Shown: positions 6,046 to 31,547 of the stretch, piece after piece
Layout: every line of letters starts with the position of its first letter
Position numbering within the stretch: position 1 is the stretch's first letter
Source: Ignavibacteriota bacterium
GTDB taxonomy: Bacteria; Bacteroidota; Ignavibacteria; Tepidaquicellales; Tepidaquicellaceae
Length of the DNA stretch: 37,077 nt
Reading direction: 5' to 3'
NCBI GenBank assembly: GCA_020437545.1
Contig: JAGQWH010000017.1
Coordinates: 1-37,077 of the forward strand
Program-made: the position numbers and the translations under genes
The notes under the pieces: generated by a model
Told to the model about the DNA's origin: nothing
The model's input: the letters and a program-made list of their open reading frames with translations, nothing else
Databases searched by the model: none

Positions 6046-7095
6046 TTACTTAAAAAACACCTGAGCAGTTTTATAAATCTCCATATCAACTGTCTTCAGC
6101 TTGCTTATAGCTTTCTTTATTGTTATGTCTGTAATCTTATTCGACACCACTGCACACATTCTTCCGAATTTTTTTGCAATTACCATCTCAACTGAGTAGA
6201 CACCGAATCTTGTACCAAGTATCCTGTCAAAAGCTGTTGGCATTCCGCCTCTCTGGACATATCCAAGTATTGTCGTCCTGATTTCAAAACCTGATCTTTG
6301 CTCCAGCTCTTCTGCAAGATAATTACAAATTCCTCCAAGCCGTTCTCTTCCAAAATCATCTTTCTTTATATTCCGTTTTAAAGATTTATCAATAAATTTT
6401 AATTCACTCTCATCTATTTTTGCACCTTCGGCTACAACAATAATGGAAAAGAGTTTTCCACGCGTATATCTTGTTTTTATTACATCCACGATCTCATCTA
6501 TTACTACTTTTCTCTCAGGTATAAGTATGACATCCGCTCCTCCGGCTATACCGGCATATACGGCTATCCAGCCTGCATTTCTTCCCATAACTTCAAGCAG
6601 CATTACCCTGTGATGTGATTCTGCTGTTGTATGCAAACGGTCAATAGCATCAGTGGCTATATTTACTGCCGTATCAAATCCAAATGTAAAATCCGTTCCG
6701 TAAATATCATTATCGATAGTTTTCGGAATTCCAATACAGTTTACACCTGCTTCGTATGCCTGCTGTGCAATATGCATGGATCCTTCCCCGCCTATACAGA
6801 TGATAGCATCAAAATCCGCTTTGTGAATTTTTTCCATCAGTATTTTTTTACCGTCTTTTTGCTCGAACGGGCTGAATCTGGAGGTACCTATAATTGTACC
6901 GCCGCGGTTTAAAATTCCCGAAACTTCTTTATTACCAAGCACCATATAATCCTCTTCAAAGATACCTTTCCATCCGTTAAGGATCCCGATGATGGTATGA
7001 TTATATTCATTGGATTTTCTGACTATTCCTCTCAGAACGGCATTCAGTCCCGGGCAATCACCACCACTTGTCAATACTCCTATTTTTAATTTCAA
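6046..7095 (-). CDS. pfkA: 6-phosphofructokinase, ATP-type by active-site residues
   Basis: This 349-residue protein would phosphorylate fructose 6-phosphate to the 1,6-bisphosphate in glycolysis. Visible motifs are GGDCPGLNA (11-19), the nucleotide-loop motif GGEGS (102-106), the catalytic PKTIDND (124-130) and GRNAGWIA. In this superfamily a glycine after the acidic residue (GGEG) goes with ATP use and an aspartate (GGDD) with PPi use, so this copy should use ATP although it has the Lys before TIDND. The start is a TTG at 7093-7095, three bases after the upstream gene's stop. It is the last gene of the minus-strand run and directly follows a PPi-type paralogue. Confidence 0.88.
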   Translation of the reverse strand: MKLKIGVLTSGGDCPGLNAVLRGIVRKSNEYNHTIIGILNGWKGIFEEDYMVLGNKEVSGILNRGGTIIGTSRFSPFEQKDGKKILMEKIHKADFDAIICIGGEGSMHIAQQAYEAGVNCIGIPKTIDNDIYGTDFTFGFDTAVNIATDAIDRLHTTAESHHRVMLLEVMGRNAGWIAVYAGIAGGADVILIPERKVVIDEIVDVIKTRYTRGKLFSIIVVAEGAKIDESELKFIDKSLKRNIKKDDFGRERLGGICNYLAEELEQRSGFEIRTTILGYVQRGGMPTAFDRILGTRFGVYSVEMVIAKKFGRMCAVVSNKITDITIKKAISKLKTVDMEIYKTAQVFFK

Positions 7096-7098
7096 TAT

Positions 7099-8403
7099 TT
7101 ATTTATTTGATTTTTCCGGTTCACTTTTTTCTTTTACAGGCGGATCATTTATAAGATATTTATATTTATTTATGAATTCATCGGTTTTCATATTTCCGAT
7201 CAAAGCAAGACGTGCAACATTCTTGAGTTCATCAAAATCTCCTTTCTCAAGCCTGATCATATACTTCCTCGCAACCTGGTAACCGTCCGAATCAACATCC
7301 ACTTCTCTTGTGCTTATCCTGCCGTTTTCATCTATAATATCCTCAAACTTTATCGGGATAAGCTGACCTTTATCTACGGTTACAATAGCCCCGGAATTAT
7401 CATTCAATAAATATCTTACAGCTGCATATCCAAGATCCTGTGTGTATTCACAATCATAAGGTATTGGTGATGCACATCTCAGTTCATATCCTATATCCTT
7501 GTTGACAATCGTTACATCAAGTCCTCTTTCACGAAGACGTCTTCTTACCTCATCTTTAGTGATCCTTCCGATATCTATCTCAGATAATCTGATGTGTCCG
7601 TGAAGATCCTTTTCAAGATTTACATAAGGATGACTTTTTAATTCTTCAGAATCAATTCTTGTAATTATTCCTTCAGCTAAAACAGCTACTCCATAGGGAT
7701 TTCCCTGCGCCATTCTTTTAATGATAGAAGCTTCGAGAATATCACAGATAGTTTCAAAACTGATTGTAGTATTTCTGAATTCTTCTCCGATAATGGTCAG
7801 GGTTGCGCCTGCTGCTTTACCGATACCGAGCGCAAGATGTCCGGCTTTTCGTCCCATAGTGACTACATAATACCAGCGCCTTGTTGTAGCTGCATCCAGC
7901 ATCAGTGACTGCACAATATGAAATCCGAAATCCCTGGCAGTCTGATATCCGAATGTCGGCATGTTTCCGGGTAACGGCAGATCGTTGTCAATGGTCTTCG
8001 GAACGTGAGCTACCTGTATCTGACCTTTTGCAAGCTGGTCTATTTTATATGCGCTTGTGGCAGTATCATCTCCGCCGATTGTAATTAGATAATCAACTGA
8101 TAATTGTGTAAGTGCTTTCAATGATGCATCTAGCATTTCCTTGCTTTTAGCCGGATTGATCCTTGAGGTCTGAAGTATGCTTCCTCCGGAAAAATGGATC
8201 CTTGAAACATCTTCAATTTTTAATTCTCTGTAATGTGTGGAATCGCCTTTGCTCAGATGCTCGAATCCGTCAAGAATACCTAATACATTCATTCCTGAAT
8301 TTATTGCTTCGATCGTGACTGATCTGATTACACCGTTAATTCCGGGCGCAGGTCCGCCTCCTACTACTATTGCAAGTGTTTTTTTTCTATAATGGTCATC
8401 CAT
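7099..8403 (-). CDS. Diphosphate-dependent-type 6-phosphofructokinase
   Basis: This 434-residue protein is longer than bacterial ATP-PFK, as is usual for PPi-PFKs. It has GGGPAPG near the N-terminus (15-21), GGDDT (110-114) with the second Asp that blocks ATP and favours PPi, and PKTIDND (135-141) with the supporting Lys. MGRKAGHLA replaces the usual MGRNAGWIA-type motif, as expected for the PPi lineage. The predicted reaction is reversible: fructose 6-phosphate plus PPi to the bisphosphate plus Pi. It starts at an ATG 36 bases after the membrane aminopropyltransferase-like gene and is 3 bases upstream of the ATP-type gene, so the two are almost certainly co-transcribed. Confidence 0.88.
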   Translation of the reverse strand: MDDHYRKKTLAIVVGGGPAPGINGVIRSVTIEAINSGMNVLGILDGFEHLSKGDSTHYRELKIEDVSRIHFSGGSILQTSRINPAKSKEMLDASLKALTQLSVDYLITIGGDDTATSAYKIDQLAKGQIQVAHVPKTIDNDLPLPGNMPTFGYQTARDFGFHIVQSLMLDAATTRRWYYVVTMGRKAGHLALGIGKAAGATLTIIGEEFRNTTISFETICDILEASIIKRMAQGNPYGVAVLAEGIITRIDSEELKSHPYVNLEKDLHGHIRLSEIDIGRITKDEVRRRLRERGLDVTIVNKDIGYELRCASPIPYDCEYTQDLGYAAVRYLLNDNSGAIVTVDKGQLIPIKFEDIIDENGRISTREVDVDSDGYQVARKYMIRLEKGDFDELKNVARLALIGNMKTDEFINKYKYLINDPPVKEKSEPEKSNK

Positions 8404-18783: not shown

Positions 18784-19641
18784 ATGAATCCGGATACATT
18801 AAATGACCTGAAAAAAACTGCTTTCAAAGTAAGAGAACACATAATCAGAATGTCCACTGACGGCGGATGCTTTATCGGCGCTTCTTTGTCATGTGCTGAT
18901 CTTATAGTTTTTTTGTACAAAGAATTTCTGAATGTAAATAAAGATAATCTAAATGATCCGAACAGAGATTATTTATTCTTATCAAAGGGACATGATGTGC
19001 CGGCGCTTTACGGGACATTTGCGGAGATAGGATTTATTGAAAAGGACAGGCTGAAGAATCATCTGAAGACGAATGATTTTATTTACTGGCATCCTAACAG
19101 GAATATTCCGGGCATAGAATTTCACAGCGGTTCACTCGGGCATTCGCTTGGAGTTGCTATCGGCGTCGCGATGGATTGTAAAATGAAGAAGCAGACAAAT
19201 AAGATAGTTGTGATACTTGGTGACGGTGAACTCGATGAAGGTTCGATATGGGAAGCCGCACTCGTTGCCGGTGCAAAGAAACTTGATAATTTAATTGCAG
19301 TCGTTGACAGAAATCACTTTCAGGCAAATATTGCAACTGAAAAACTTATTCCGCTTAATCCTATTGCTGATAAATTTGAAGCATTCGGATGGAAGGTCAG
19401 ATCATGTAACGGGCATGATTTTGAAGATATGGGAAAAGCATTTTCGGATTTTCCTATAGAAGCCGGCAAACCAAGTGTTGTAATTGCTGAAACAAGGAGA
19501 GGCAAAGGTCTTCCGAGCATAGAAGCGCGTGCTGACAGATGGTTTGTGAATTTTACGGGTGAGGAAGTTGAGATGCTGATGAAGGAGCTGCACGGGGAAG
19601 AGGAAGCGAAGCTGACGTCTGAGACGATTGTAGCGAGGTGA
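18784..19641 (+). CDS. Transketolase-like N-terminal subunit (ThDP-binding)
   Basis: This 285-residue protein is the N-terminal half of a split transketolase. Seen are SKGHDVPALY (His70), the thiamine-diphosphate/Mg motif GDGELDEG (146 onward) ending with Asn177 (VVDRNHFQ), and FHSGSLGHSLGVAIG, typical of the family. It would transfer two-carbon ketol units together with the C-terminal subunit. That subunit is encoded only at 21401, after a 1.76 kb insert, although such genes are normally adjacent. Its place among NeuB, SpsF and an aminotransferase suggests sugar-precursor synthesis for surface glycan rather than the central pentose phosphate pathway. It is complete and starts at ATG. Confidence 0.85.
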   Translation: MNPDTLNDLKKTAFKVREHIIRMSTDGGCFIGASLSCADLIVFLYKEFLNVNKDNLNDPNRDYLFLSKGHDVPALYGTFAEIGFIEKDRLKNHLKTNDFIYWHPNRNIPGIEFHSGSLGHSLGVAIGVAMDCKMKKQTNKIVVILGDGELDEGSIWEAALVAGAKKLDNLIAVVDRNHFQANIATEKLIPLNPIADKFEAFGWKVRSCNGHDFEDMGKAFSDFPIEAGKPSVVIAETRRGKGLPSIEARADRWFVNFTGEEVEMLMKELHGEEEAKLTSETIVAR

Positions 19642-20323: not shown

Positions 20324-20659
20324 TTATATATCCAGGATCAGGCTTAAATTTTCTTTCAGTTGCTCAATAATGTTTTCAGGCAATTCACCGATTTTTTTTG
20401 AAAACCGTTGATTGTCTATTGCTCTGATCTGATCAATCATGATCTCACAATCTTCATTCAAATTCGCCATTCCTTTTTTCAAATGAACTCTTAAAATTTC
20501 GGATTCTGAAACTAAATTTGTAGTTATCGGGCAAATGATCGTTGAAGGGTGAAAGTTATTCAAAAGATCAGTCTGTATAATCACTACCGGTCTTATTTTA
20601 CCCGATTCTGTTCCTGATCTGGGATTCAAGTCTGCTATCCATATTTCATACTGATTCAT
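20324..20659 (-). CDS. MazF/PemK-type endoribonuclease toxin
   Basis: The protein has 111 residues from the ATG at 20657-20659. A start 18 bases further upstream is also possible. Family features are the N-terminal YEIWIADLNPRSGTESGKIRPVVIIQ region (loop before the RPVVI strand), PITTN after the second strand block, and DQIRAIDNQRF, the usual MazF signature near the active face. Such toxins cleave mRNA or tRNA and are held by the upstream antitoxin. It overlaps the antitoxin gene by 14 bases, the standard coupled layout. The pair is opposite in strand to the surrounding glycan genes. Confidence 0.85.
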   Translation of the reverse strand: MNQYEIWIADLNPRSGTESGKIRPVVIIQTDLLNNFHPSTIICPITTNLVSESEILRVHLKKGMANLNEDCEIMIDQIRAIDNQRFSKKIGELPENIIEQLKENLSLILDI

Positions 20660-20885
20660 TTTCGTATTCTGATTCATCGAATTCTCTAAGGATTTTCATA
20701 GATTCATTTCTTACAAGTAAAGACTCTTTTTTAAGCTGTTTAGTAAGAATTTTTCTTTTGTGAAGCATATTGTAAAAATCAACAGCTTCATTAATATATC
20801 GGTTTCTGTTAGTTTTGAGTTTTGATAATATCTTTTCTGTTTCCTGAAAAATATCATCATCGATTTTTAAAGATAGATTTTTCAT
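20646..20885 (-). CDS. Ribbon-helix-helix-like antitoxin for the MazF-type toxin
   Basis: This 79-residue protein opens with an RHH-type DNA-binding N-terminus (LSLKIDDDIFQETEKIL, then NRNRYINEAVDFYN). A charged, helical C-terminus follows (KQLKKESLLVRNESMKILREFDESEYENES), of the kind that binds and blocks the toxin. The stop overlaps the toxin start. The inverted repeat at 20907-20925, just before the start codon, is a likely operator for autoregulation. Size and order fit a MazE/PemI-like partner. Confidence 0.8.
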   Translation of the reverse strand: MKNLSLKIDDDIFQETEKILSKLKTNRNRYINEAVDFYNMLHKRKILTKQLKKESLLVRNESMKILREFDESEYENESV

Positions 20886-21306: not shown

Positions 21307-21402
21307 AACCAATTAACCAATTAACCAATTAACCAATTAACCAATTAACCAATTAACCAATTAACCAATTAACCAATTAACCAATTAACCAATTAACCAA
21401 TT
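21307..21402. repeat. 12-copy octamer array ending in the transketolase C start codon
   Basis: Twelve exact copies of AACCAATT cover 96 bases. The last two bases are the TT of the TTG start at 21401. Because 8 is not a multiple of 3, and the unit gives TAA in each frame within 24 bases, no N-terminal extension can pass through it. A change in copy number would alter only the leader length. Confidence 0.95.
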
Positions 21403-22300
21403 GACATACGAAGATCTTCTTAAACACCTCATAGACACTGACGAACGCTTCATGATCCTCACGGCTGAGAATCGTGCAGCTATACGGAATTTGCCTGATC
21501 AGATCGGTGACAGATTTATAGACACGGGAATTACTGAACAGACTCTGATCGGTGTATCGGCAGGACTTGCTTTGCGGGGACGGATACCTGTTTCTCATGC
21601 TCTTGCTTGTTTTCTGACAATGCGCGCATTTGAATTTATAAGAACTGATGTGGGTATAGCTGATCTTCCGGTTAAACTCATCGGCGGCTTTGCGGGATTT
21701 TTATCTGAAGCTAACGGTCCGACTCATCAGGCGATTGAAGATGTTTCCATTATGAGAGGAATTCCCAATGTGAATGTCTTTTGTCCGGCGGATGAACAGG
21801 ATATGATGATCGGATTGAAGAAAGTGCTTGAGAGTCCGAAACCGTTCTATATCCGCTACAATAATCTTCCGCCTGTATATGAACATTCTGAAGATTTTGA
21901 AATAGGCAGAGCTGAAATTGTAAGCGAAGGGAGTGATGTAACGATAATGGTGTATGGAGTCTTGTTCAGACAGGCAATGGAAGCAAAGGCAATTCTTGAA
22001 TCAAAAGGAAAGTCGGTCGGTCTGATAAATCTCAGAACTTTAAAACCCATTGATGAAGAAGCAATATTAAAAGCAGCAGCAGATTCAAAATTAATAGTAA
22101 CTATCGAAGATCATTTTATTACCGGCGGACTATACTCAATTCTTGCTGAGATATTTTTAAGAAACAGGGTAATGCTTGATGTATTACCGTTTGCGCTTAA
22201 TGACAAGTGGTTCAAACCTGCATTGATGAAGGATGTGCTGGAGTATGAAAGATTTACAGCAGAAAAAATCGCTGCTAAGACTTTGGATAGAATGAAATGA
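21401..22300 (+). CDS. Transketolase-like C-terminal subunit
   Basis: This 299-residue protein is the C-terminal half of a split transketolase. The pyrimidine-domain Glu46 in DTGITEQTLIGVSAG activates thiamine diphosphate. GFAGFLSEANGPTHQAIEDV follows, and the transketolase C domain is at ~170-290. The start TTG at 21401 is fixed by an in-frame TAA at 21386-21388 and by the family N-terminus (DLLKHL...DERFMILTAE). It should pair with the N subunit at 18784, from which it is separated by a mini T9SS gene, a toxin-antitoxin pair and several repeat arrays. Its leader is an octamer array, so its translation may differ between cells if copy number varies. Confidence 0.85.
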   Translation: MTYEDLLKHLIDTDERFMILTAENRAAIRNLPDQIGDRFIDTGITEQTLIGVSAGLALRGRIPVSHALACFLTMRAFEFIRTDVGIADLPVKLIGGFAGFLSEANGPTHQAIEDVSIMRGIPNVNVFCPADEQDMMIGLKKVLESPKPFYIRYNNLPPVYEHSEDFEIGRAEIVSEGSDVTIMVYGVLFRQAMEAKAILESKGKSVGLINLRTLKPIDEEAILKAAADSKLIVTIEDHFITGGLYSILAEIFLRNRVMLDVLPFALNDKWFKPALMKDVLEYERFTAEKIAAKTLDRMK

Positions 22301-23740: not shown

Positions 23741-24616
23741 ATGTCAAAAATAAAAGTTCGCGAAATTTCAATTGGAGACGGAGAAAGGGTTTATGTAATT
23801 GCTGAAATAGGTATCAACCATAATGGTTCTCTGAAGCTTGCAAAAAAACTCATTAAAGCCGCAAAAGAAGCGGGTTGTGATGCTGTTAAATTTCAAAAAA
23901 GAACTCCCGAACTCTGTGTGCCGAAAGACCAGTGGAATATAGAAAGAGATACTCCCTGGGGGAGAATGAAATATATAGATTACCGGCATAGAATAGAATT
24001 AAGTTTTGATGACTATCTTGCAATAGACAATTACTGCGCAAAGAAAAGGATTGACTGGTTTGCATCCTGCTGGGATGAGGAATCGGTGGATTTTATAGAA
24101 CAGTTCAATCCGCCATTATATAAAGCTGCATCTGCTTCACTGACAGATCATAATTTACTTATAAAGAAAAAGCTGACAGGTAAACCACTGATAATATCAA
24201 CTGGAATGTCTTCATTAAAAGAAATCAACAGAGCCGTAAAGAAAGCCGGTTCGGAAAATCTTTTAATTGCTCATTCGACGTCTTCATATCCATGCAGACT
24301 GGAAGAGTTGAATATTAAAGTTATAAGAACATTAAAACAGATCTATCCTGAAATTCCGATAGGATATTCCGGTCATGAGACAGGATTATCTCCTACTCTT
24401 GCGGCAGTTGCTCTCGGGGCTGCTTTTGTAGAAAGGCATATCACTCTTGACAGGGCAATGTGGGGAACGGATCAGGCTGCGTCTGTAGAGGCCGGAGGAT
24501 TTAAAAAACTTGTTCAGAATATACGGGATGTGGAAAGATCTTTGGGAGATGGTGTAAAGAAAATTTATGAAAGTGAAATGCCTCAGAGAAAGAAGTTAAG
24601 ACGCGTAAGTCATTAA
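23741..24616 (+). CDS. NeuB/SpsE-family nonulosonate synthase lacking the SAF domain
   Basis: This 291-residue TIM-barrel enzyme is predicted to condense PEP with an N-acyl amino sugar to a nonulosonic-type acid. Motifs are EIGINHNGSLKLAKKLI, DAVKFQKR, STGMSS, HSTSSYPC, IPIGYSGHE and ERHITLDRAMWGTDQ. Family members are normally about 340-350 residues with a C-terminal antifreeze/SAF domain. Here the chain ends at KKLRRVSH, just where the linker to SAF would start, so that domain is absent. It converges on the anti-sigma gene with only five bases between. It is the last gene of the glycan cluster and is probably the source of the acid sugar activated by the SpsF-like enzyme. Confidence 0.85.
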   Translation: MSKIKVREISIGDGERVYVIAEIGINHNGSLKLAKKLIKAAKEAGCDAVKFQKRTPELCVPKDQWNIERDTPWGRMKYIDYRHRIELSFDDYLAIDNYCAKKRIDWFASCWDEESVDFIEQFNPPLYKAASASLTDHNLLIKKKLTGKPLIISTGMSSLKEINRAVKKAGSENLLIAHSTSSYPCRLEELNIKVIRTLKQIYPEIPIGYSGHETGLSPTLAAVALGAAFVERHITLDRAMWGTDQAASVEAGGFKKLVQNIRDVERSLGDGVKKIYESEMPQRKKLRRVSH

Positions 24617-24621
24617 ATTAT

Positions 24622-25218
24622 TTACGAATCCTTTGGATCAACTAAAAGAAGAAGGGTACATCCTTTTTCAGTCTTCAAAGCGCCATGGTCACTGCCACTC
24701 TCTGCATGATGAAAATCCCCGGGTCCGAGAATTTTTCCTTCCACAAGCAGATCCCCTTCGAGCACAAAACATTCTTCAGCGCCATTGTGATGATGAGGCG
24801 GATATTCACTTCCGGGAGCAGCTTTCATCAGCATCATAAAATATCCCTTTTCATTATTCAATGAAAGCGGTTTAATTTTTATTCCTTTAATATCAGGATG
24901 AGGTATCCAATCAGCTGCATCAGAAAACCTGAATTCAAAGGCGTTCATTTTGTTTTCGATTCCCGGTTTATTCTTCAGCTTTAGTTTTTTAAATAATTTC
25001 TTCTTTACGGACGGATCGGGAGATAACATCTTATCTGACAGGATAGCAACGGAGAACAGAGATAATAAATTATTATATGCCTGTATATTTTTTTTATAAT
25101 TAACACCAGCAGAACCTGTCCCTGATTTAAAAGCCTTACCGGCATTTTTGAAAATTAAATCAGTTGAATTAAGGATCTCATCATTTTCAGCTAAACGTAT
25201 ATTATTTTTCTTTGTCAA
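24622..25218 (-). CDS. ChrR-like cupin anti-sigma factor
   Basis: This 198-residue protein has a C-terminal cupin domain with the metal ligands PPHHHNGAEECFVLEGDL and a later HH/H pair (GDFHHAESGSDHG). The N-terminal ~90 residues are helical and carry no HxxxCxxC zinc motif as found in classical ChrR. The family holds an ECF sigma factor inactive until singlet oxygen, peroxides or another cue releases it. It lies 12 bases downstream of an ECF sigma gene in the same direction. The start is a TTG at 25216-25218. The missing zinc motif suggests the sigma-binding half works differently. Confidence 0.75.
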   Translation of the reverse strand: MTKKNNIRLAENDEILNSTDLIFKNAGKAFKSGTGSAGVNYKKNIQAYNNLLSLFSVAILSDKMLSPDPSVKKKLFKKLKLKNKPGIENKMNAFEFRFSDAADWIPHPDIKGIKIKPLSLNNEKGYFMMLMKAAPGSEYPPHHHNGAEECFVLEGDLLVEGKILGPGDFHHAESGSDHGALKTEKGCTLLLLVDPKDS

Positions 25219-25230
25219 TTTATATCAGAT

Positions 25231-25797
25231 TTATTGAATGTATTTTTTTAATTTATCACGAAGAATCATCATGGCAGCCCGCATTCTTGTTTTCACTGTT
25301 CCAAGAGGAATATCAAAATGCTCCGCAAGTTCAGACTGTGAAAATCCCCTGAAATAAGATAATACTATAAGCTCTCTTTGATTCTGTTTTAAAGATTTAA
25401 TGGCTTTCGAAACTTCAGACTGTTCCTGACTGAGAATTATGCCGGCATCAGGATCATCAGCTCCGGGTTCTCCGGACAGATCAAAAAATTTATCCATGTC
25501 GATCTCCGCAGAACGTTTTTTATATCCTTTGCTTCTGAGCCGGTCAATGGATTTATTTCTTGTCATGCGTGTAATCCATGCAAGAGGATTGCCAAGGGTT
25601 TCATCATAAGAATCAACTTTATTCCAAATCTGAATAAATATCTCCTGCAGGAGATCTTCGGATTCGGCCTGATCCCTGAGAATATTAAAAATTATAGTAT
25701 ATATATACCGGTGATGAATATCATAGAATTGACTAAAGGCAGTTTCGTCTTTTTGTGATATCCTTTTTATTAATAAAAGGTCGTTATTATTATCCAT
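25231..25797 (-). CDS. ECF-type RNA polymerase sigma factor
   Basis: This 188-residue protein has sigma region 2 (QEIFIQIWNKVDSYDE, then AWITRMTRNKSIDRLRS) and region 4 (LSYFRGFSQSELAEHFDIP and GTVKTRMRAAM), as in group IV sigma-70 factors. It starts at the ATG at 25797. Together with the cupin anti-sigma protein encoded just downstream it forms an RpoE-ChrR-like pair, usually linked to oxidative or photo-oxidative stress. The gene upstream (stop at 25862) is 64 bases away on the same strand, so it may share the transcript. Confidence 0.9.
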   Translation of the reverse strand: MDNNNDLLLIKRISQKDETAFSQFYDIHHRYIYTIIFNILRDQAESEDLLQEIFIQIWNKVDSYDETLGNPLAWITRMTRNKSIDRLRSKGYKKRSAEIDMDKFFDLSGEPGADDPDAGIILSQEQSEVSKAIKSLKQNQRELIVLSYFRGFSQSELAEHFDIPLGTVKTRMRAAMMILRDKLKKYIQ

Positions 25798-25861: not shown

Positions 25862-27478
25862 TCAGGCTAAAGTCTCATTTAATTCAAATAGAATTTTATT
25901 AAGATCATGCCCAAACAATTTATATGCTTTGGCAGCTCCGCCTTTATTTACAAATGGCGGCTGATTAAAACTTGTCATATTTATTTCAAGAAATGTTGAG
26001 TAATAATTCTTCATCATATTAAGCCAGTCAAGTTCTTCTTCGGTATACTCTTTACCTTCTTCTTTTTGTTTTGCCAGCCAGTCATTGAATTTGATTGCAA
26101 CTTTATCAAGGAATGGTTCTAAAATTTCAATTTTTCCTAAAGCAAACTGTGTTAATGCAATGATGTTAGCCGGATTCTTTTGTTCACCAAGAGGTTTGAC
26201 TTTGTCAGGATTTGTTCTCTGATAAGCATTCCATACATCATCAGCAGTGATCTCATAAGGCGGCTTTCTTAATTCTTTTGCAATGCTCTTTATCTCATCA
26301 AAATCAATATTGACATGACCGTTTACGCTGTTTGAAATAATTTCAATAACAGGAATATCATTTTTGTGAGATTCCAGGAAACTTTCAAATTTATAGATAA
26401 CATCTTTGGATCTTTCTTTTGCAGCTTCTTCTATTGAATTATTATTTATCAGCTGAGTATTTTTTTTCTTAATTTCAAGAATTACAAATCTGAATTTAGG
26501 ATTGTCAAAAGGTCTGCAGGCAATACTTACAAGCTCTTCAGTAGCCTGCTTTAAATCATTATCATTGGGAATATAAGATTTTTCACCTGCTGCAAACATT
26601 TCCTTTGCTTTTTCAATTTGCTTATCAACTTGTGTAGTTATTATGAGATTGTTAATAATTTCTTTAAGGCTCGAAACAGGCGGATCCAATTCTGAACACA
26701 CTTTTTTTAATTCTTCTTTGTCTTCAGAAGTCAGATTTTTTTCTATTCTTGTCAATCCTTCTATAAGCGAAACAAGAGTATTTTCATCTCTGAATCCTAT
26801 TGCAACTGACTGGATCAGGGATTCAACTGAAAATGCTTTTACTATCTCCTGAACGGTTTCAGTAGTAATCTCAATGTTGTTGATTTTATTGGCAAGACGA
26901 AAACTTATAAAAGCGAATAAGACTGCGATCAGAACATCTAAAACGGAACTCATTTTCAGAAATACCGGTGATAAACATATCATTACGCACCAGGCTATCA
27001 CAAGTCCTTTTTTACTGAAATTTGATCTGACATAAAATAAAGTGCAAAGTACTGCTGTAGCAGCGGTCCAGTTTGGGAAAGTAGAAAACGGATTGACAGA
27101 TTTATAGAGCGCATTGACAGCATTAAAAAAGAACCCTGTCTCGGTTATTACCGGACGAATATCATTTTGCGTCGGCATAAAGCCATGAAAGAAGTTTACT
27201 ATACTCCATAAAATGATGAGAGAAAAAAGAAATACCGACATTTCCATCGCATCTTTTTTGCGAAGTGTCTTTATATAAACAAAGATCAGTAAAATATATA
27301 AGGATATATAAAATATTATAAATCCGGGGATCAGTTTTATTCCATTTTCAAATGTTAAAAAAATGGGAGTATAACTTTCTGCCGGATGGTTTAAGGGTGT
27401 GAGCAGATAATATTGTATCAAAGCTACAATCAGCAATACAATATTAAAAATATTCATTACTTTAAATCTTGATGTCAT
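25862..27478 (-). CDS. Membrane protein: degenerate PAP2-like domain fused to an HsdR-type C-terminal domain
   Basis: The protein has 538 residues. Residues ~10-198 form about six membrane helices. Their order resembles PAP2_3 phosphatases (RP at 108-109, then TFPNWTAA where the family has FPSLHVA, then MSSVLDVL where it has QHYxLDVL), so both catalytic His positions seem lost. From ~205 to the end the sequence follows the helical C-terminal domain of EcoEI-type HsdR: PFDNPKFRFVILEIKKKN, FDEIKSIAKELRKPPY, then TQFALGK, EEELDWLNMMKNY, and PPFVNKGGAAKAYKLFG with FELNETLA at the end. No nuclease or helicase motifs are present, and no hsdM or hsdS lies in the window. Both domain calls are from memory of family patterns. 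The role is unknown. Confidence 0.65.
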   Translation of the reverse strand: MTSRFKVMNIFNIVLLIVALIQYYLLTPLNHPAESYTPIFLTFENGIKLIPGFIIFYISLYILLIFVYIKTLRKKDAMEMSVFLFSLIILWSIVNFFHGFMPTQNDIRPVITETGFFFNAVNALYKSVNPFSTFPNWTAATAVLCTLFYVRSNFSKKGLVIAWCVMICLSPVFLKMSSVLDVLIAVLFAFISFRLANKINNIEITTETVQEIVKAFSVESLIQSVAIGFRDENTLVSLIEGLTRIEKNLTSEDKEELKKVCSELDPPVSSLKEIINNLIITTQVDKQIEKAKEMFAAGEKSYIPNDNDLKQATEELVSIACRPFDNPKFRFVILEIKKKNTQLINNNSIEEAAKERSKDVIYKFESFLESHKNDIPVIEIISNSVNGHVNIDFDEIKSIAKELRKPPYEITADDVWNAYQRTNPDKVKPLGEQKNPANIIALTQFALGKIEILEPFLDKVAIKFNDWLAKQKEEGKEYTEEELDWLNMMKNYYSTFLEINMTSFNQPPFVNKGGAAKAYKLFGHDLNKILFELNETLA

Positions 27479-27716
27479 TCTGTTTTAAATTGTTTCAAAA
27501 GGTTGCTGAATAGGTTTTATATTTTTCTAATGGGGTTTAAGCAAATTACTCATAATACTTTTGCATTTCAAGATTGAATATAATAGTACTTTAAAATTTA
27601 TAATACACAGCATTAATTAAACACAGTTAACATTGTTTTTTAGTAAAACTCACAAAAAGGATCATCATTTTTTAAAAAACATATTCTGAGAATAAATGCT
27701 TATTTAACACTAAAAA

Positions 27717-29399
27717 TTAAAAACTCACGGATTTATCGACAGATTTACGGGAAATATAGACAACTATCATTACCATTATAAAAAGGATAATGCCATATGC
27801 AGCGGCTGCTCCGGTATTGTATAATCTTAACTGTGAATAAATTTCAACTGAAATGGTTTTTGTGGAATAAGTGTAGAGCAAAATAGTTGAAACAAATTCA
27901 CCTACTGAGTTTATAAAAACAAGCATTGCTCCTGACAGGACAGATGGGATCACAAAAGGCAGTATGACCTTTCTGAATGTCCTGTATCCTGAAGCTCCGA
28001 GTGAAGATGAGGCTTCTTCCAGTGACGGATCAAAGGCGTTGAATCCTGCAAGAGATGACTGTGTTATTATCGGCATATTCCTCACGGCATAAGCAAGAGG
28101 CAGTATCCAGAATGTACCTGTCAACGGTATAAAACCTGAAAACAAATTCGGAGTATTGAAACTGATAATAAAACTCAGAGCAATGACCGTACCGGGAATT
28201 CCATAGGGCAATGAAAGAAGTCCTTCGATGATCTTTCCTCCTCTGATCTTTTTCCGGGAGATAAGAAATGATGCGCTTACTCCGACAATTATTGTAATAA
28301 TTACGGCAATTGCAGCCATTTTTATACTGTTAACAAATGGTTCGAAGAATTTCGGATCTTTGAAAACCTTAAAATAATTTTCCAACGAGAACGGTTCGGT
28401 GAAATAATTTCTCATGAGTGAACCTTCAGGAATAAGTGAAAGAAATCCTAGTGCAAGTATCGGCAATAAAATAATTGTTATAAATGTATAAACAGTCAGA
28501 TTAGTGAGTATGCCAGCTTTACTGTTTGAGTCTGAAACAAATGATTTTACGGTACCCTTGGTCCGTGTCTCAAAGGAATTTCTGCTTCTGTAATATCTCA
28601 GCATTAAAAAAAACAAAAGAGATATCAGAGTAAGAAGTACTGATAACATTGATGCTGCCGAGCTGTCACCATTGATCTTAGAAGAATAGATCTCTGTAGT
28701 TAAAAATCTTATCGATCCTCCGAATATCAAAGGCGCAGTGAAAGAAGCCATGCTTGCCATGAATACTATCAGAGATGCCCCAGTGACAGAAGGGATGAGC
28801 TGAGGAAAAATAATTTTAAAGAAAGTCCTGATCTTTGATGCTCCGAGTGAATAAGATGCTTCTATAATGCTGAAGTCGATCTTCTTTAATGCTGAATATA
28901 TAAACAGAAGAAAGAACGGGTAGAAAGAATATATGTGAATGATGATTATAGCAGTCCAGCCTTCGAATTTAAATGGGATGCTCTCAATCCCGGTGAGCAT
29001 AGTAATGATCTTAATGAGTAAGCCGTTCTCGTTCAGCAAAAATAAAAATGCAACTGTGCTGACAAGTGGCGGAGCTGCTATCGGAATGAGTAAAATTGAG
29101 TAAAGGAAATTTCCGAAAGGCAGTTTTTTAAAATGAAATATGTAAGCAAAAAATAATCCGGTTAGGAAGCTTCCGGCTGCTGTGATCAGAGAAAGTAATA
29201 CGGAATTTAATACCGAACTTCCGGCAATGCTGTAAAATGAACCCGTCTGGTTTCCGGATGAAAAAACCGCAAGACTGTCTTTTACAAGAGAATACAAAGG
29301 ATAAAGAATATAACCTGTGATAAAGAAAATTATTACCGCAAGTAAGAATATATTTAACTTGGAAAGTTTAAATAAATTATTCTTATTAATTTTGCTCAT
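27717..29399 (-). CDS. Fe3+-type ABC transporter, fused double permease
   Basis: This 560-residue protein with about twelve helices is built as two homologous permease units. Each has an ATPase-contact EAA loop: EASYSLGASKIRTFFKIIFP in the first half and EEASSSLGASGYRTFRKVILP in the second. This layout is that of FbpB/AfuB/SfuB iron(III) importers and their relatives. The ATPase gene upstream overlaps it by 14 bases, and the binding-protein gene lies further upstream. It is complete. Whether the substrate is iron or another ion or sugar phosphate (as for AfuABC in some species) is not decided by sequence. Confidence 0.85.
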   Translation of the reverse strand: MSKINKNNLFKLSKLNIFLLAVIIFFITGYILYPLYSLVKDSLAVFSSGNQTGSFYSIAGSSVLNSVLLSLITAAGSFLTGLFFAYIFHFKKLPFGNFLYSILLIPIAAPPLVSTVAFLFLLNENGLLIKIITMLTGIESIPFKFEGWTAIIIIHIYSFYPFFLLFIYSALKKIDFSIIEASYSLGASKIRTFFKIIFPQLIPSVTGASLIVFMASMASFTAPLIFGGSIRFLTTEIYSSKINGDSSAASMLSVLLTLISLLFFLMLRYYRSRNSFETRTKGTVKSFVSDSNSKAGILTNLTVYTFITIILLPILALGFLSLIPEGSLMRNYFTEPFSLENYFKVFKDPKFFEPFVNSIKMAAIAVIITIIVGVSASFLISRKKIRGGKIIEGLLSLPYGIPGTVIALSFIISFNTPNLFSGFIPLTGTFWILPLAYAVRNMPIITQSSLAGFNAFDPSLEEASSSLGASGYRTFRKVILPFVIPSVLSGAMLVFINSVGEFVSTILLYTYSTKTISVEIYSQLRLYNTGAAAAYGIILFIMVMIVVYISRKSVDKSVSF

Positions 29400-30393
29400 T
29401 ATCCAGTATTCTTAAATTACTGCTGTCAAATGTAAATGAAATGCTGTCTCCCGGCTGAAGCGCGTTTTCTGATTTATCCGCCTGTCTGCGGGAGTTGATT
29501 ATTCTGTCTCCGAAAGAGATCAGATATTCTATGCTGAATCCGGTGAACTGAACATCGATCAATTTTAATCCACTATCTAAGATCGTTTTTTCGGGTATAA
29601 GTTCTTCAGGAAAAAAAGAGAGCATCTGTTTTTCATTTATGTCTATACCGAAAATTTTTTTAGCCGAAACTTTATCAAAAAAATTTGAATGACCGATAAA
29701 ATCTGCAACAAACAAATTCTGAGGTTTGTAATAGATCTCCTGAGGAGATCCGGTCTGCATCACCTTTCCTTTGTTCATGACAGCAATTCTGTCTGACATA
29801 GCAAGAGCTTCTGACTGGTCATGAGTAACATAAACCGAAGTTATACCTATATCTTTCTGTAGTCTTTTTATTTCATTTCTCGCTTCGAGACGAAGTGAAT
29901 AATCAAGATTGGAAAGTGGTTCATCAAAAAGCAGCAATGCAGGTTCTGTCACCATTACTCTTGCAAGAGAAACTCTCTGCTGCTGACCTCCGCTGAGCAT
30001 TGTTACGCTTTTTTCCGACTGACTTGTCAGTTTAACTTTTTCAAGTACTTTTAGAACTTTCTCCCTTATATCTTCTTTAGCAAGCTTTTTTATCTCAAGT
30101 CCGTAAGCAACATTTTCAAAGACCGTCATATTCGGAAAGAGAGCATAGTTCTGAAATACTATACCGATGTTCCTTTTTTGTGTAGTTAAATTTGTAGAAT
30201 CAACATTATTAATAAATATCTGACCATCTGATGGAAACTCCAGTCCGGCTATTATCCTAAGCAGTGTAGTCTTTCCGCATCCGCTCGGTCCGACAAAGGA
30301 AAAGAATTCTCCTTTTGTTAATTCTAAATTAACATTGTTGAGTACTTTCTCATTACCGAATGATTTTGAAATACCTTTTACGGACAGAATCAT
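29386..30393 (-). CDS. ABC transporter ATPase (FbpC-like)
   Basis: This 335-residue protein has Walker A GPSGCGKTT (35-43), the Q-loop VFQNYALFPNMTV, the signature LSGGQQQRV (133-141), Walker B LLLFDEPLSNLD (153-164) and switch His191 (THDQSEA). A TOBE-like regulatory region of ~100 residues follows. It should power the fused permease encoded downstream, whose gene it overlaps by 14 bases. Length and motif spacing fit the FbpC/PotA group. It is separated from the binding-protein gene by 137 bases containing an imperfect palindrome. Confidence 0.9.
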   Translation of the reverse strand: MILSVKGISKSFGNEKVLNNVNLELTKGEFFSFVGPSGCGKTTLLRIIAGLEFPSDGQIFINNVDSTNLTTQKRNIGIVFQNYALFPNMTVFENVAYGLEIKKLAKEDIREKVLKVLEKVKLTSQSEKSVTMLSGGQQQRVSLARVMVTEPALLLFDEPLSNLDYSLRLEARNEIKRLQKDIGITSVYVTHDQSEALAMSDRIAVMNKGKVMQTGSPQEIYYKPQNLFVADFIGHSNFFDKVSAKKIFGIDINEKQMLSFFPEELIPEKTILDSGLKLIDVQFTGFSIEYLISFGDRIINSRRQADKSENALQPGDSISFTFDSSNLRILDNEQN

Positions 30394-30467
30394 TATTTAA
30401 GTTTTGATTTTAATGATTTTAATGTGTGAAATGATTTATTACTTTTATATAATAAGTTTAACGTTTT

Positions 30468-30506
30468 ATACTCTTGCGCAATCCGATAAATCGGATCGCG
30501 AAGTAT
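30468..30506 (-). repeat. Imperfect palindrome between binding-protein and ATPase genes
   Basis: A core of ATCCGAT-AA-ATCGGAT extends outward through GCGC/CGCG and ATACTC / AAGTAT to about 39 bases. It lies 24 bases downstream of the binding-protein stop and 75 before the ATPase start on the minus strand, and no T-run follows. It may protect the upstream mRNA so the binding protein is made in excess, as REP elements do in other importer operons. Confidence 0.6.
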
Positions 30507-30530
30507 CAAGAATAAAAAATTGTATCAAAA

Positions 30531-31547
30531 CTATTTTGATTTACCCTTGATCTCGCTGTCCCATTTTTTCATCCACTCATTTTCATTATCAGAGATCAGC
30601 TCCCAGTCAAGATCCATTGATTTATAATTTGCATCCGCTATCCACTCCGGTAATTTATCTTTTGGTATATCTGACCTTGCGGGGATACGGTAAAATTTTT
30701 CAGCCTGAAGGATCAGACTTTGCTGAGATGTTACGAATTCATAAAATTCTTTTACAGCTTCCGGATTTTTTGTGCCTTTTACTATTGCAATGCCGTCTGT
30801 AAGTACGACCGTACCGGCTTCGGGAAAATTATATCCGAACGGATACTGATAAAGGTTTTTTTGTAAAATAATATCGGGCATATTCCATAAGGTTGCAGCA
30901 TCATTTCCGGCTAGTTTAATATACATCTGAGTAGGATCAGCAGCATAGACGGAAGTGTTTTCATCCAGCTTTCTCAGCCATTCAAATCCGGCGGCTTCAC
31001 TGCCTGTTGTCTTTACAGAATTTGCTATCATAGCGCAGAAGATAACTCTCATCGTTCCGGAAGCCATTGGATTCCTTATAACAATTTTATCTTTCCATTC
31101 GGGCTTTATCAGATCGTCCCATTCCTTCGGAGCACTCTCTTTTGTAAGCGTCTTTTCATTGAATGCAATTACCTGCGGTGTCAGAAATGTCCCGTACCAT
31201 TTGTCGGATTTACTTTTACTGTCAGTACCGACATTTTCAGCCCAGGTAGGTTTATATGTTTCAAGAAGATCGAGTTTCTCAGCTCGCATAAAGATAGTAG
31301 CCGGAGCGCCCCACCAAAGATCTGCAAGAGGATTTTCCTTTTCAGTACGTATCCTGTCAATGATCTCCTGCGAACCCATGTCGAGCCACTGAATATCAAT
31401 GTCCGGGTGTATAGCTTCAAACTGAGTTTCAAATTCCGTCAGCATTTCTTTTCCGTGAGGGGAATATACTACTACTTTTTTCTTATTGTCGGACGAACAG
31501 CCGTAAAGGAGCGTGGCAAGTAAAAATAAATAAAGTGTTTTTTTCAT
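30531..31547 (-). CDS. Lipoprotein substrate-binding protein of the ABC importer
   Basis: This 338-residue protein has a signal and lipobox (ATLLYGCSSD, Cys17), so it is membrane-anchored. The mature part starts KKVVVYSPHGKEML and continues as a type II periplasmic binding fold (family 1 extracellular solute-binding) with GSQEIIDRIRTEKENP and a LWWGAPATIF pocket region. It resembles FbpA/AfuA/FutA-like binding proteins. Tyr ligands typical of ferric binding are not clear to me, so iron is likely but not proven. It heads the importer genes. An AT-rich hairpin lies upstream, between it and the deacetylase gene. Confidence 0.82.
   Translation of the reverse strand: MKKTLYLFLLATLLYGCSSDNKKKVVVYSPHGKEMLTEFETQFEAIHPDIDIQWLDMGSQEIIDRIRTEKENPLADLWWGAPATIFMRAEKLDLLETYKPTWAENVGTDSKSKSDKWYGTFLTPQVIAFNEKTLTKESAPKEWDDLIKPEWKDKIVIRNPMASGTMRVIFCAMIANSVKTTGSEAAGFEWLRKLDENTSVYAADPTQMYIKLAGNDAATLWNMPDIILQKNLYQYPFGYNFPEAGTVVLTDGIAIVKGTKNPEAVKEFYEFVTSQQSLILQAEKFYRIPARSDIPKDKLPEWIADANYKSMDLDWELISDNENEWMKKWDSEIKGKSK

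Follow-up and report, generated by a model that had tools for sequence, protein, structure and literature searches.

A degenerate PAP2-like membrane domain fused to the C-terminal tail of HsdR in a family of Ignavibacteria

PAP2 proteins carry an active site that faces the periplasm, and the histidine of their third conserved motif (C3) is the nucleophile in PAP2 chemistry. For HsdR, the R subunit of type I restriction enzymes, the C-terminal helical domain has been described as likely to associate with HsdM and to take part in ATPase activity and translocation (PMC5248579). Fusions of HEPN domains to EcoEI-like helicases have been described (PMC3710099), which is a different architecture from the one reported here. 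Within a limited collection of literature, we found no paper that deals with EcoEI_R_C by name or with a fusion of the kind described below.

The window analyzed here is a stretch of 37,077 nucleotides from an Ignavibacteriota bacterium (assembly GCA_020437545.1, contig JAGQWH010000017.1, positions 1 to 37,077). One of its open reading frames joins parts of both kinds of protein:

25862 to 27478, minus strand: fusion open reading frame, 538 amino acids from its ATG, a degenerate PAP2_3 membrane domain followed by an HsdR C-terminal tail

In the Pfam scan, EcoEI_R_C (PF08463) matched residues 359 to 537 with an E value of 2.3e-25 and 90 bits (cut-off, 24), and PAP2_3 matched residues 55 to 194 below threshold (E value of 0.0023, 18.2 bits against a cut-off of 27). 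Among the nine members of the fusion family, EcoEI_R_C was matched by all and PAP2_3 by seven, with a best E value of 8.7e-10. The first-pass annotation had proposed a PAP2-like domain joined to an HsdR tail at this position, with no motor, and had suggested searching both halves against these models. Pfam and profile evidence confirmed the fusion, with the C-terminal half well over its cut-off. For the N-terminal half, the window protein itself fell short of the PAP2_3 cut-off, but most members of the family match the model. The scan of the 538 residues also agreed with the absence of a motor, since it gave only the PAP2-like and EcoEI_R_C domains and no nuclease or helicase domain.

The similarity to HsdR covers much more than the Pfam domain:

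25865 to 26830, minus strand: residues 217 to 538, helical C-terminal tail of HsdR, with EcoEI_R_C itself at 359 to 537, from BLASTP, profile alignment and a tail model

In BLASTP comparisons with two full-length HsdR proteins, from relatives that lack the fusion, residues 218 to 538 of the window protein aligned with HsdR residues ca. 603 to 927, reaching the HsdR C terminus, and hhalign of the nine fusion tails against nine HsdR tails gave a probability of 100% (E value of 1.2e-39, 311 columns). Searches of phages and plasmids retrieved only HsdR-type tail matches from residue 214 on, most of them starting at residues 214 to 217 (three plasmid matches were shorter), and never covered the N-terminal half. 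From these extents, the whole post-helicase tail is present, and the start of the homology, placed earlier at residue ca. 205, has to be moved to ca. 217. Along this region, the fusion and HsdR proteins with an EcoEI_R_C tail are about 25% identical and colinear to the last residue. They have in common W416, W485, L486, M488, P508-F509, G513-G514, F522, and N534, while several HsdR-conserved positions have a different residue that is invariant among the fusions (E219 for K, K337 for R, N345 for D, M489 for I, F496 for S, and S503 for D). Unlike HsdR, the fusion has neither the PD-(D/E)XK nuclease nor the SF2 helicase, carries a membrane domain instead, and is not encoded with hsdM and hsdS.

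A model of the tail (residues 205 to 538, eleven sequences) reached a mean pLDDT of 83.5 with a pTM of 0.49, and the full-length model (four sequences, mean pLDDT of 46.6) was unusable. Foldseek of the tail model against the PDB and viral models gave no match under an E value of 0.001, and the best VIA match was a CHAD domain with a Z score of 6.5, a value that unrelated helical bundles also reach. No solved relative was found by sequence, and no PADLOC model matched the fusion protein at an E value of 0.1. Other motor-less forms were also sought among the EcoEI_R_C proteins of 395 genomes from the phylum. Among the matches listed, eight short frames were examined, and those that could be interpreted proved to be either contig ends or disrupted HsdR genes; more short frames sat near contig ends.

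The membrane half is a relative of PAP2 phosphatases with altered motifs:

26879 to 27478, minus strand: residues 1 to 200, PAP2-like membrane domain, from PAP2_3 matches, profile search, hydropathy, loop charges and low-confidence model helices
27152 to 27157, minus strand: R108-P109, probable counterpart of the motif 1 "RP" of PAP2, invariant in all ten N-terminal domains
27059 to 27079, minus strand: FPNWTAA, residues 134 to 140, PAP2 motif 2 in degenerate form, with T138 in place of the catalytic His
26930 to 26959, minus strand: LKMSSVLDVL, residues 174 to 183, PAP2 motif 3 in degenerate form, with S177 in place of the nucleophile His and Asp181 retained

A profile built from ten N-terminal domains (nine fusions and one free-standing domain) retrieved ordinary PAP2 proteins across the phylum, with the same order of motifs. 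The catalytic histidine pair of these proteins aligns to T138 and S177, PSLH or PSGH facing PNWT and (K)QH..D or (R)YH..D facing KMSSVLD in the window protein, and R108-P109 would correspond to motif 1 as it is known in the PAP2 family. With a profile match, colinear motifs and about six hydrophobic helices in residues 1 to 200 (by hydropathy and the low-confidence model), the domain belongs to the PAP2 superfamily, but T138 and S177 in place of the catalytic histidines set it apart from the active phosphatases, as does an extra tail of ca. 320 residues. Hydropathy, the low-confidence model and what is known of the family suggest that the N terminus, the K/R-rich loops and the tail are cytoplasmic, in which case the pseudo-active site would face the periplasm. 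Failing the definitions of both HsdR and an active PAP2 phosphatase while being homologous to parts of each, the protein was filed as neither.

The loss of both catalytic histidines, as first annotated, is true of the window protein and does not extend to the whole family. The C2 histidine is retained (PNWH or PSWH) in five of the nine fusions (G010, G011, G013, G022, and G023) and replaced in the other four (by T, T, L, and Q), whereas the C3 histidine is absent from all ten N-terminal domains, with S, T, or A in the fusions and N in the free-standing domain of G012. That the domain is still an enzyme, with an altered active site, could be argued from the retained C2 histidine, the invariant RP and C3 aspartate (D181), and the strong constraint on the sequence. 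We consider it improbable, given that the nucleophile is gone from every member and that members still under constraint have T, L, or Q at the C2 position. A pseudo-enzyme is what PAP2 chemistry would predict from the loss of the C3 nucleophile in all members alongside invariant R108-P109 and D181. The free-standing PAP2-like domain of G012 (L027:7275-7901, 208 amino acids, in a 215-amino-acid frame, 34% identical to the N-terminal domain of the window protein) also lacks both catalytic histidines.

Full-length fusions were found in nine genomes, including that of the window, on separate contigs and within five genera of a single family of Ignavibacteria. The other eight copies are 53 to 93% identical to the window protein, and three of the nine were also retrieved from the GTDB contig collection. 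Of 44 genomes in the order, nine had the full-length fusion, three had partial matches (two HsdR tails and the free-standing N-terminal domain of G012) and 32 had none. The possibility that an assembly error or a frameshift joined two genes, raised initially as what would undo the proposal and conceivable in a draft assembly of 429 contigs, is thereby refuted and has a negligible probability, since the frame is intact in nine genomes and dN/dS is well under 1 on either side of the junction. Both halves are under purifying selection, with dN/dS values, where computable, of 0.05 to 0.08 in the tail and 0.09 to 0.14 in the membrane half. In a tree with a modest sample of HsdR tails, rooted for drawing only, the nine fusion tails formed a single clade (100/100), whose stem, at 1.59 changes per site, was the longest branch of the tree. 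On the simplest reading, the fusion arose once, changed rapidly and then came under strong constraint. A long stem followed by slow evolution is the shift in constraint expected of a new role, so these data fit one.

We then looked for a type I system that the tail could serve. No second EcoEI_R_C protein was found in the genome of the window, where the fusion is the only match. Methylase_S appeared only below threshold, inside an open reading frame that reads as a SpoIIE-like phosphatase, and the single N6_Mtase match reads as PrmC, with an NPPY motif. Thus, no type I system was detected in this genome, which is 97.4% complete in 429 contigs, so that the absence of genes is not absolute. Among the other carriers, homologues of hsdM and hsdS were present elsewhere in the genome in seven of the nine (G002, G010, G011, G013, G014, G022, and G023) and none was shown in G001, whose genome is 67% complete. 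At an E value of 1e-3, the fusion protein found HsdR tails only in G009 and G016, neither of which carries the fusion, and the type I systems of the carriers therefore seem to use other HsdR families. Neither hsdM nor hsdS, nor any other hsd gene, lay beside the fusion in any of the nine carriers, although such neighbors had been suggested as a check.

The first-pass annotation had offered two alternatives, that the protein tethers, inhibits or senses a restriction complex or that it serves another complex altogether. In the former, the tail would fill the docking site of HsdR on the methyltransferase, in keeping with the assembly with HsdM mentioned above and with the hsdM and hsdS homologues of seven carriers, in which the tail could still dock to restriction components. 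As an explanation of the family it has a low probability, because the genome of the window lacks hsdM, hsdS and any EcoEI_R_C HsdR, no carrier shows an HsdR tail in the fusion search, and the gene is never near hsd genes. Since type I genes were not detected in the genome of the window, docking to a restriction complex is not needed there to retain the gene. The second alternative was the better half of the proposal: with the fusion persisting in a genome without a detectable type I system, the tail appears to be reused for another job.

The fusion is a chromosomal gene with a conserved promoter element of its own:

27542 to 27578, minus strand: conserved promoter region, with TTCAATCTTGAAATGC at 27563 to 27578 and the palindrome TTCAA-N2-TTGAA over the TTG of TTG-N20-TAATTTG

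The 16-bp element TTCAANCTTGAAATGC occurred as an exact copy in eight of the nine carriers, once per genome and just upstream of the fusion; the exact search covered 14 genomes, and copies appeared only in these eight. The ninth carrier, G011, has a diverged form. The general pattern upstream of the fusion is TTCAA[TA]CTTGAA[AT]TGC followed by TAATTT at a nearly fixed distance. Promoters of the Bacteroidota type follow the consensus TTG-N20-TAnnTTTG, and by this resemblance we infer that the conserved region is one of them. The palindrome may bind a dedicated regulator. No regulon emerged, as most of the one-mismatch sites examined lay inside coding sequences of other conserved genes, and the element was missing upstream of the free-standing membrane domain of G012. 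We discarded an ECF11-like TGATCC site, located 186 bp upstream in the window, since none of G002, G001, and G010 conserves it.

Downstream of the fusion, the window has two regulatory genes on the same strand:

25231 to 25797, minus strand: ECF sigma factor (Sigma70_r2/r4), 64 bp downstream of the fusion stop, in the same order in genus g9
24622 to 25218, minus strand: ChrR-type cupin, probable anti-sigma factor, the next gene after the sigma factor

We know of no ECF/ChrR system described with a membrane protein carrying an HsdR tail. The pair in the window resembles ECF11-like sigma factors with a ChrR cupin anti-sigma factor (e.g., PMC6852236) in its Sigma70_r2/r4 and ChrR cupin domains and differs from them in the fusion, which is linked to it in only two of the five genera. 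These are g1 and g9, where the order of fusion, sigma factor and cupin on one strand is kept although their fusions are 54% identical, the gaps being 64 and 12 bp in the window, compared with 22 and 6 bp in g9. The adjacency noted at first, 64 bases from the sigma factor, is thus real in the window and not a constant of the family. Urocanate hydratase lies upstream of the fusion in g10, g12, and g13 (directly so in g12 and g13), a TPP riboswitch and a TonB-dependent receptor follow it directly in G011, G014, and G023, and in G010 they come after the sigma/cupin pair. Genus g6 has the sigma factor, cupin, TPP riboswitch and receptor grouped together but lacks the fusion. These varied neighborhoods look like traces of a single ancestral one, and with no neighbor constant among the carriers, the link to the sigma factor is suggestive only.

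From the conserved order and strand in two genera, the fusion might be the membrane sensor of the ECF/ChrR system, the PAP2 remnant sensing an envelope signal and the tail docking ChrR or the sigma factor, with release of the latter. The ChrR-like cupin is short and has no evident membrane domain in the Pfam scan, so that a separate membrane input would fit. We regard this role as unlikely, if less so than restriction docking or altered catalysis: the fusion is kept in G013, G014, G022, and G023 without a relative of the cupin (and in G011 with only a weak, unlinked one), g6 keeps the sigma/cupin pair but has no fusion, and the upstream element, which resembles a housekeeping promoter, is found in carriers lacking the ECF pair as well.

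TPP riboswitches precede a TonB-dependent receptor of ca. 800 amino acids in seven relatives:

L021:9141-9237, L022:10587-10684, L024:1793-1894, L025:8058-8159, L026:6535-6625, L097:6835-6941 and L098:5602-5709: TPP riboswitches

In g6 (L097 and L098), the riboswitch comes after the ECF sigma/ChrR pair, which suggests an ECF-linked outer membrane receptor for thiamine. The position of riboswitch and receptor just downstream of the fusion in three carriers, and beyond the sigma/cupin pair in G010, could also mean that the fusion works with the receptor in thiamine acquisition. This is very doubtful. The riboswitch lies between fusion and receptor and would control the receptor only, neither the window nor the stretches from G002 and G022 gave a TPP riboswitch above the gathering score, and g6 has the receptor without the fusion. 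In addition, the ABC transporter of the window matched best with models of the 2-aminoethylphosphonate/polyamine type (all below cut-off) and not with thiamine models. This transporter operon, with a double-domain permease, an ATPase and a binding protein, lies upstream of the fusion at 27717 to 31547.

We therefore favor, with a confidence that stands about midway between doubt and acceptance, a membrane-anchored and probably non-catalytic docking protein whose exapted HsdR tail docks a partner other than a type I restriction complex. The fuller version, to which we lean slightly less, just short of an even chance, is that the docking tail of HsdR has become a permanent part of the inner membrane, carried by an inactive lipid-phosphatase scaffold, and forms a cytoplasmic assembly or signaling platform unrelated to restriction. 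The pseudo-phosphatase domain, with its six predicted transmembrane helices, would hold the tail in the cytoplasm, where it would act as a helical docking platform for a cytoplasmic partner, and the PAP2 remnant may bind a lipid phosphate or sense a ligand. That partner might be the ECF/ChrR pair encoded alongside the fusion in two genera, or else a housekeeping complex that every carrier has.

What makes the family of interest is an HsdR tail under strong constraint without motor, nuclease or methyltransferase, in a membrane protein and in a genome that yielded no type I system. If a docking role outside restriction is correct, the HsdR tail would be a portable docking module and a case of exaptation of HsdR outside DNA restriction, and the fusion family would offer a simple membrane-bound system in which to find the binding partner of the tail. 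It would also mean that the label "type I restriction subunit R," when given from EcoEI_R_C alone, can be wrong.

Elsewhere in the window, inspection of the translations by eye showed a gene for a MazF-like toxin, accompanied by a short partner gene (20324 to 20885), between the apparent halves of a split transketolase (18784 to 19641 and 21401 to 22300). By the same inspection, this stretch sits in a cluster for a sugar of the nonulosonic acid type, with a NeuB-like gene at 23741 to 24616, and the same MazF-like/transketolase order is seen in G002 (L019). Also by eye, two adjacent genes on the minus strand at 6046 to 8403 are both phosphofructokinase-like by their N-terminal sequences.
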